Shown: positions 22,076 to 49,857 of the stretch, one piece after another | Layout of the letters: every line of letters begins with the position of its first letter | Numbering within the stretch: position 1 is the stretch's first letter | Assembly: GCF_014647455.2 (NCBI RefSeq) | Contig: NZ_BMPF01000001.1 | Coordinates: 496,001-560,000 of the forward strand | Length of the DNA: 64,000 bases | DNA from: Halarchaeum grantii | GTDB lineage: Archaea; Halobacteriota; Halobacteria; Halobacteriales; Halobacteriaceae | Reading direction: 5' to 3' | The notes under the pieces: generated by a model | What the model was told of the DNA's origin: nothing | The model's database searches: none | What the model saw: the letters and a program-made list of their open reading frames with translations, nothing else | Translations under genes and position numbers: made by a program

Positions 22076-22819
22076 ATGACTCAGACCACAGACGACCTCG
22101 CGATCCGCGAACCGCCGAAGGTGCTCGTGCCCGTCGAAGTGCTCGAGGGCGAATCCGTCTCGGAGTCGCTCGCCGCGTTCCTCGCGCCCGCCGACGTGGT
22201 CGTGCTCGGCTACCACGTCCTCCCGGAGCAAACACCGACCGAACAGGCGAGCATGCAGTTCGAGGAGCGCGCACAGACCGCCGTCGATGACCTCGCCGCC
22301 GTCTTCCGCGACGTCGGCGTCACCGTCGAGACGCGCGTCGCGTTCACGCACGACCGCGACCAGACCGTCGAGCGCGTCGCCGCCGACGTCGGTGCGACCG
22401 CCGTCCTCCTCCCGAACCCCGTCGGCGACGTCTCGGACGTCCTCGTCCCGATCCGCGGCGTCGTCGACCGCGAGCGCCTCGCCGACCTCGTCGCTACCCT
22501 CCTCGCGGACGGCGACGGCGAAGTGACGCTCTGGGGGCTCGGGAGCGACGAGTACGACGCCGAGGCCGCCGTCGAGGCCGCACGCGAGAGCCTCGCCGAG
22601 CGCGGCCTCGACACCGCCCGCATCACCACCGAGACGAGTCCCGCCGACTCGCCGGTCCACGACATCGTCTCGCGCTCGGCCGACTTCGACGTCATCGTCA
22701 TGGGCGCGGGCGAGGGGTCGCTCTGGTCCGTGCTCTTCGGCGGGGAGTCCGAGCGCGTCGCCGAGGGCGCCGTCGCGCCCGTGCTCGTCGTGCGCGACCG
22801 AGAAGCCGTAGGCGACTAG
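22076..22819 (+). CDS. Usp-domain protein coupled to the permease
   Basis: A 247-residue protein whose C-terminal half has the Usp signature SADFDVIVMGAGEGSLWSVL followed by FGGESERVAEGAVAPVLVVR, including a G-2x-G-9x-like glycine pattern. The N-terminal part (PPKVLVPVEVLEGESVSESL ... VAADVGATAVLLPNP) looks like a second, diverged Usp domain. The 3-bp gap to the permease indicates one operon. Confidence 0.85.
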   Translation: MTQTTDDLAIREPPKVLVPVEVLEGESVSESLAAFLAPADVVVLGYHVLPEQTPTEQASMQFEERAQTAVDDLAAVFRDVGVTVETRVAFTHDRDQTVERVAADVGATAVLLPNPVGDVSDVLVPIRGVVDRERLADLVATLLADGDGEVTLWGLGSDEYDAEAAVEAARESLAERGLDTARITTETSPADSPVHDIVSRSADFDVIVMGAGEGSLWSVLFGGESERVAEGAVAPVLVVRDREAVGD

Positions 22820-23207
22820 CGATGTAGAGCTTCCGCTGCGAAGAGGGGCGACACACGGCGACGAGCGCTCGCGGAGCGACGGCTCACAGGAGAGTCGTAT
22901 GTTCTGCCCGGAACACTAACGACCGGCCTCATCCCTGGGCTGCGTGCCGTGTCGGCCGGGAAACCCTCGTGCCGGGCAGGATCGGCGCGGGGTCAGTTGG
23001 TCCCGCGCGAGACGTGACGTGTCTCGGCCGGAGGATCGCTGATCCTCGGGGTCGGCGGCTGACGCCGCCTCATCGGCGTTCCGTGAGGTCCGCCGGCTGT
23101 CGCGTGCCCGGGTTCTCCGCGCGTCATCGCGCCCGGAGTGGGTGTGCTCGGGCGGGGACTAAAGGCACGCAGCGCACGGTACGGCGGCCACGCGCTTGAG
23201 GGCTACG
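22820..23207. other. 388-bp spacer with dense hairpins, no convincing gene
   Basis: The open frames here read as shadow-like Arg-rich peptides. The composition stays GC-rich, but the sequence is packed with perfect inverted repeats (see the ncRNA candidate), unlike the coding DNA around it. Confidence 0.7.
22985..23138. ncRNA. Candidate structured non-coding RNA (class and strand unknown)
   Basis: Six consecutive inverted repeats: 22985-22991 with 23002-23008 (GCGCGGG/CCCGCGC); 23008-23013 with 23021-23026 (CGAGAC/GTCTCG); 23031-23037 with 23041-23047 (GAGGATC/GATCCTC); 23054-23059 with 23064-23069 (GGCGGC/GCCGCC, TGAC loop); 23074-23078 with 23091-23095; 23119-23123 with 23128-23132 (GCGCG/CGCGC, TCAT loop, outer CTCC/GGAG). 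I looked for the SRP core motif (GGAAGGGAGCA type) and RNase P conserved regions and found no clear match, so it stays unassigned. TTTAGT on the minus strand at 23158-23163 could be a promoter if the RNA is on that strand. Confidence 0.4.
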
Positions 23208-23459
23208 CTATGCGACGTCGCCCGCGCTCTCGCTCTCGGCCGCGTCCTCGCGGAGCTGATAAACCTGCTCGCGGGTGGCACAGACCCCGCAGACGCATTC
23301 GGCGAGGCCGACCTCCGCGAGTTCGGCGAGCGCGTCGCGCGCTTCGTCCTCGTCGATACGCGCTTCGCTCGCGACTTCGGCGGGGGAGAGTGGCCCCCGG
23401 TTGTCGAGGACCACGCGGGCGAGCTTCGCGTGGCACGAGAGGGTGACGGTACCGCTCAT
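23208..23459 (-). CDS. Small winged helix-turn-helix protein
   Basis: An 83-residue protein. A helix-turn-helix-like part (LARVVLDNRGPLSPAEVASEARIDEDEARDALAELAEVGL, residues about 13-52) is followed by a Cys triplet CVCGVC (residues about 55-60) that could bind a metal. The acidic tail is typical of the group. Likely a DNA-binding or metal-sensing regulator, but the target is unknown. Confidence 0.75.
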   Translation of the reverse strand: MSGTVTLSCHAKLARVVLDNRGPLSPAEVASEARIDEDEARDALAELAEVGLAECVCGVCATREQVYQLREDAAESESAGDVA

Positions 23460-49770: not shown

Positions 49771-49800
49771 GTTCGTCAGAAGTGGGTCGGGGCGGATTCG
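49771..49800 (+). repeat. Second arm of the long inverted repeat (real tRNA tail)
   Basis: GTTCGTCAGAAGTGGGTCGG then GGCGGATTCG. With the arm at 49716-49742 it can form a stem of about 27 bp with a 28-base loop, placing the tRNA 3' end in a large hairpin. Confidence 0.78.
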
Positions 49801-49857
49801 AACCGCCGGCCTGCTCCGTGTGAAGGAGCCGTCATAACCAGACTAGACCACCGACCC
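49783..49857 (-). tRNA. tRNA-Val (anticodon CAC)
   Basis: 75 nt without intron. Acceptor GGGTCGG pairs with CCGACCC, discriminator A. The anticodon stem GCTCC/GGAGC encloses loop TTCACAC with anticodon CAC; the T-arm has GGTTCGAATCC. No CCA is encoded, as usual in archaea. Confidence 0.95.

Follow-up and report, generated by a model that had tools for sequence, protein, structure and literature searches.

Archaeal box H/ACA RNAs work with the partner proteins Cbf5, Nop10, Gar1 and L7Ae. Each of their hairpins is followed on the 3' side by an ANA box (usually ACA) at about 14-16 nt from the top of the pocket, has a K-turn or K-loop with sheared G-A pairs above the pocket, to which L7Ae binds, and offers two guide strands complementary to the rRNA that flanks an unpaired UN. 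In H. volcanii and other halobacteria, two such hairpins, HP1 and HP2, were predicted by Grosjean 2008 (PMC2584109). In that paper, HP1 is assigned to pseudouridine 2621 (E. coli 2586) and HP2 to 1956 and 1958 (E. coli 1915 and 1917), the two are 'separated by a long spacer', and HP2 is given as the homolog of stem III of Pf7 and HP1 as apparently that of stem II. According to a 2015 paper (PMC4652768), which cites Blaby 2011 as experimental validation, the hairpins were refolded and renamed Hvo1 and Hvo2a/b. Two H/ACA RNAs on one H. volcanii transcript were later detected by RNA-seq, as stated in a 2019 study (PMC6490895).

Here, we analysed a 64,000-nucleotide stretch of Halarchaeum grantii DNA (the window). 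The noncoding gap at 22820-23207 holds the haloarchaeal two-hairpin box H/ACA guide RNA on the minus strand, which belongs to a known family and a known ortholog group. The published descriptions of HP1 and HP2 in halobacteria make the window RNA an ortholog of the RNA already known, and the novel content is limited to the evidence on strand, promoter and covariation, the distribution and the structured spacer. The sequence-only reading of this DNA had proposed a candidate unannotated structured RNA in a 388-bp noncoding spacer. The spacer is real, with ORFs ending at 22819 (plus strand) and 23208 (minus strand), and the RNA is genuine and has no Rfam match, but it is not new, being of the box H/ACA kind and already described. 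Likened by the published description, it agrees with the H. volcanii and halobacterial HP1/HP2 in having two hairpins on one RNA with a long spacer, in the same predicted targets (equivalents of E. coli 2586, and of 1915 and 1917) and in the same guide logic; the 5-nt 3' guide and 9-nt lower arm of its HP1 also fit the printed 10/5/9 fold. It differs from that account in genus and in its spacer, which is structured and ranges from 3 to 261 nt among the loci compared. Unlike the three adjacent hairpins of Thermococcales, the window RNA has two, which in haloarchaea are usually spaced. The features are as follows.

22820-23207: noncoding gap of 388 bp, between a plus-strand ORF ending at 22819 and a minus-strand ORF ending at 23208
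22076-22819, plus strand: convergent neighbour, universal stress protein gene (Usp, PF00582, by domain match)
23208-23459, minus strand: 83-aa helix-turn-helix-like ORF outside the RNA (weak HTH_20 and AlkZ-like matches)
23179-23204, minus strand: promoter, from A/T peaks in 122 loci (BRE/TATA at about 23195-23204, W of the -10 element at 23180)
23096-23175, minus strand: HP1, first H/ACA hairpin
23164-23170 with 23102-23108, minus strand: HP1 lower stem
23157-23159, minus strand: HP1 5' guide, GUC
23124-23128, minus strand: HP1 GAUGA of the predicted k-turn
23110-23114, minus strand: HP1 3' guide, AACCC
23098-23100, minus strand: HP1 ACA box
22978-23097, minus strand: spacer of 120 nt, a series of local hairpins (by folding; statistics from spacers of 79 relatives)
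22898-22979, minus strand: HP2, second H/ACA hairpin
22972-22977 with 22906-22911, minus strand: HP2 lower stem
22962-22968, minus strand: HP2 5' guide, GAGGGUU
22929-22933, minus strand: HP2 GAUGA
22915-22920, minus strand: HP2 3' guide, GUUAGU
22900-22902, minus strand: HP2 ACA box

Each hairpin consists of two stems, lower and upper, a two-sided pocket in which the bases hardly vary, opposed GA and GAUGA in a k-turn-like arrangement and a 3' ANA box, and this anatomy fits the definition of an archaeal box H/ACA RNA as given in PMC2584109. At the level of sequence, the UGA and the GA facing it vary little or not at all in HP1 and in HP2, the k-turn itself being predicted. We aligned 48 loci taken from 122 (alignments A1 and A2), keeping one locus per near-identical HP2 and those with an ACA at the usual place after HP1. 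Lower as well as upper stems covaried in both hairpins. Double-sided changes were found at 11 of 16 pairs in HP1 and 9 of 15 pairs in HP2; in either case none of 500 shuffles reached the observed number and all slid versions were far lower, so that the covariation which the sequence-only reading had suggested looking for in relatives is strong in both hairpins. Conservation of the ACA in alignment A1 is by selection, because only ACA-bearing loci were taken. The unselected counts are those over 146 loci, where an A-N-A lies exactly 9 nt past GAACCC of HP1 (14 nt from the pocket top) in 141, and HP2 is followed by ACA or AUA in 144. Within the genus, three sister loci (L003, L004 and L005; L142 is L003 again) have GCA in place of ACA after HP1, a point against the H/ACA reading. 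RNAalifold paired some of the pocket positions (19-71 and 20-70 in HP1; 9-11 with 66-68 in HP2), which would hide guide bases and thus counts against the guide reading.

The sequence-only reading had further supposed that CCCGGAACAC (22907) and GTGTGCTCGGG (23142) pair and close the whole region into one domain. Both pieces are present, though they sit in two separate hairpins and the closing helix is not conserved, its 4-bp ACAC:GTGT part occurring in 9 of 48 relatives; we rejected this helix, and two adjacent hairpins with a spacer take the place of the closed domain. A long-range pairing between the two conserved blocks (GCGTGCC with GGCACGC) was likewise dropped on inspection of the alignments, because GGCACGC pairs, and covaries, with the other arm of its own hairpin.

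A plain DNA search matched 49 of 59 relatives. The matches were confined to two blocks, 22906-22980 and about 23092-23171. Across families, identity within the blocks was often 80-96%; the sequence separating them could not be aligned. Of 149 fetched loci, 146 had HP1 and HP2 together in unchanged order, the three misses being cut by a contig end; the 149 loci include some genomes twice (e.g. L003/L142 and L016/L039), and there are 141 different HP1-HP2 sequences among the 146. The covariance models built here, R1 for HP2 and R2 for HP1, both of which include the window sequence itself, matched the window with E 2.9e-24 (G000:C1:518898-518979) and E 1.2e-16 (G000:C1:519096-519175), respectively. 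Each model matched 53 of the 59 relatives, with one match per genome, and both together recovered the RNA in 52. Neither R1 nor R2 matched G034, G037, G039, G040 or G051, among which G034 alone (92%) is more than 90% complete; its copy may be divergent. Across the phylum, R1 matched 74 of 196 sampled genomes. Of these, 33 are from its own order or nearer (up to E 8e-26), and the other 41 belong to different families (E 5e-9 to 5e-4). Such weaker matches are what one would expect of the wider H/ACA family linked to Pf7 and Afu4 in PMC2584109; Pyrococcus Pf7/Pab40 (stems II and III) and A. fulgidus Afu4 are among the closest known systems.

Scanning of named genomes with an exact pattern yielded at least 119 stretches, which is no census; the pattern was built from HP2 and so cannot show divergent copies. 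Among the matches listed, all records were from haloarchaea or from archaea without a haloarchaeal name, except one. This was a 3.2-kb contig labelled Halobacteroidaceae bacterium (L120, PUNE01000061.1), which carries the haloarchaeal RNA and was probably wrongly binned. A draft genome of Haloquadratum walsbyi (L073) carries the RNA, despite the report of no identified H/ACA RNAs in a transcriptome study of this species (PMC5496347). The scaffold concerned (KE356560.1, Haloquadratum walsbyi J07HQW1 MAG) has two HP1-HP2 copies (L073 and L075) with equal 31-nt spacers and non-identical sequences, the model-matching genomes otherwise having one copy each.

No Rfam family matched the RNA in the gap at gathering score, and at E up to 10 just a meaningless short match was obtained. 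The sequence-only reading was right that the gap contains neither RNase P nor SRP RNA: the models of archaeal RNase P RNA (RF00373) and archaeal SRP RNA (RF01857) had no match in the gap, and both genes were found elsewhere in the genome (G000:C2:582785-583114 and G000:C2:24394-24709, respectively). The significance of the finding is mainly one of bookkeeping. The RNA held responsible in the 2008 paper for the few pseudouridines of haloarchaeal rRNA is without a matching Rfam family, and genome annotation can therefore miss it. The sole match of the window at Rfam gathering score was a tRNA-Val (CAC) at 49782-49857 on the minus strand.

We determined the complementarity of both pockets to the organism's own rRNA (821 uridines). 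With the pocket boundaries of HP1 fixed (3' guide AACCC, 5' guide ending in GUC), which was done after the published target was already known, the pocket fits a single uridine among the 551 of 23S rRNA and no uridine among the 270 of 16S rRNA. This site is U2613, in GCUGGGUU-U-A-GACCGUCG, which corresponds to E. coli U2586. HP2 can be drawn at two sites of helix 69, U1950 (UAGU:ACUA and GAGGGU:ACCCUC) and U1948 (GUUA:UAAC and GAGGGUU:GACCCUC, a third base being left unpaired, as the 2015 model of PMC4652768 has it), the equivalents of E. coli 1917 and 1915, respectively. When the pocket boundaries were left free, the same thresholds were passed for HP2 at 11 of the 551 uridines in 23S and 5 of the 270 in 16S rRNA, some of them outscoring the helix-69 sites, and the HP2 targets thus rest on homology and literature. 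A wide-open target scan was uninformative, with neither helix-69 site among the 12 HP2 sites listed. We take the H. volcanii target numbers to be 1940, 1942 and 2605 and the name of the RNA there to be sR-h45; a literature search under that name gave no paper.

In the proposed mechanism, the minus strand from about 23175 to 22898 would be transcribed in this species as one RNA comprising HP1, spacer and HP2, which would load Cbf5 and its partner proteins. The HP1 pocket would pair around 23S U2613 in the peptidyl-transferase centre, and the HP2 pocket around U1948 and U1950 in helix 69. The enzyme would then isomerise U2613, U1948 and U1950 to pseudouridine. For H. volcanii, both transcript and modification have been published. 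The Cbf5 gene is present in the genome and intact (291 aa). This gene, together with the structure, strand, conservation, ACA boxes and pocket complementarity of the RNA, is established directly by the present analysis. We consider the proposal as a whole, i.e. one minus-strand two-hairpin box H/ACA transcript guiding pseudouridines at U2613 and U1948/U1950, to be correct with near certainty.

The spacer, measured from the ACA of HP1 to the start of HP2, has a median length of 51 nt across the loci and is 120 nt long in the window. Folding was compared with dinucleotide shuffles for the 79 spacers of at least 40 nt among 122 deduplicated loci. On the minus strand the mean z was -3.85, with 65 of 79 spacers below -2, and on the plus strand it was -3.11, the minus strand folding better (Wilcoxon p 1.8e-6). 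Flanks of equal length gave mean z of -0.22 (3') and -0.02 (5'), and an earlier run of these statistics went in the same direction. Formation of one long closed domain by the spacer was rejected, as ends closed with at least 4 bp were seen in 4 of 79 spacers against 25.1 expected. We also rejected a dispersed mobile repeat as the source of the spacer hairpins: when one 106-nt spacer piece from Halobacterium was searched against 7 genomes, the window's own included, the only matches were the place it came from and this RNA locus in one further genome. Two kinds of hairpin alternate in Halobacterium loci such as L011, L020 and L029, one of 9 bp with a 3-nt loop and one having a symmetric internal loop, and in L011, L017, L020 and L029 the spacer is enlarged by what appear to be repeated two-hairpin modules.

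We read the spacer as a hypervariable string of local hairpins, in which structure is kept while sequence turns over. Tentatively, and with the balance of probability somewhat against it, the spacer might be a locus-specific RNA domain in which selection acts on structure and not on sequence, with a job such as keeping the two GC-rich guide hairpins apart during folding or docking another protein. The alternative is a neutral origin by local inverted duplication without selection, against which the folding preference for the minus strand speaks moderately. A literature search gave no account of the spacer as a structured, fast-changing string of hairpins, and the structured spacer seems undescribed so far. 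It is a small and testable example of structure being retained in an RNA despite sequence change.

The hairpin richness noted by the sequence-only reading is real. The gap has 15 inverted-repeat pairs, several being self-overlapping palindromes, and the GC stem with a TGAC loop is present at 23054-23069. Perfect stems of at least 5 bp with loops of 3-8 nt number 8, against 3.8 in dinucleotide shuffles (12 of 300 reach 8), and those of at least 6 bp number 4, against 0.95 (8 of 300 reach 4). Both strands were folded as that reading had advised, and the total folding energy was found to be mildly unusual, with z of -1.53 on the plus and -1.18 on the minus strand. Such modest values are what chance hairpins in GC-rich noncoding DNA might give, yet HP1 and HP2 are conserved across the order with compensatory changes, and this covariation already refutes chance, the probability of which we put at practically nil. 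Since the plus strand also folds slightly better than shuffles, and many spacer hairpins on it show, by eye, GAAA-like loops and paired GA mismatches, the gap might instead produce a structured RNA of another, unknown kind from the plus strand, the strand on which the sequence-only reading had placed it. Against this, G-U exceeds A-C on the minus strand, in 49 versus 7 cells over 31 core pairs (a count that leans toward the minus strand, on which we drew the pairs) and 13 versus 3 in imperfect spacer stems (p 0.02); the spacers are better folded on that strand; and the promoter signals lie on its side. Upstream of HP1 in 122 loci, A/T peaks form a BRE-TATA pattern, with TTWA at -39 to -36 from GTCCCC and W at -21 in 95%, and a T-rich run lies downstream of the HP2 ACA on the minus strand. 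The TATA of the window is weak (TCAA), which counts against the proposed transcript. On the plus strand, each conserved block starts beside TGT and contains TCATC, i.e. ACA and GAUGA on the minus strand. The G-U/A-C counts in the core and the spacer stems, together with the promoter and T-run signals, place the gene on the minus strand, and a plus-strand RNA is extremely improbable.

The gap could also be the 3' UTR or an attenuator of the upstream 83-aa gene without any independent RNA, as this ORF lies on the same strand, stops some 38 nt short of the inferred start of the RNA and has a similar counterpart in several relatives of the same family (alignment, by eye). Its HTH_20 and AlkZ-like matches are both below the curated cut-off. 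However, the promoter sits between this gene and the RNA, and loci from other families (e.g. L010, L013, L014 and L019) as well as L027 keep the RNA without that gene (by eye), which makes this explanation highly unlikely beside that of an independent box H/ACA RNA.

Two further observations concern the surroundings of HP2. L006 (at 14 and 1245) and L007 (at 205) carry additional sequences that resemble the 3' arm of HP2 (GCCCGGAACACTACCGGG and near variants) and are located, in the plus-strand reading, upstream of the true copy. In the window, stretches like GACGAGCGCTCGCGGAGCGACG at 22856-22893, just 3' of the RNA, recur elsewhere in genomes of the same genus and look like a small dispersed palindromic repeat.
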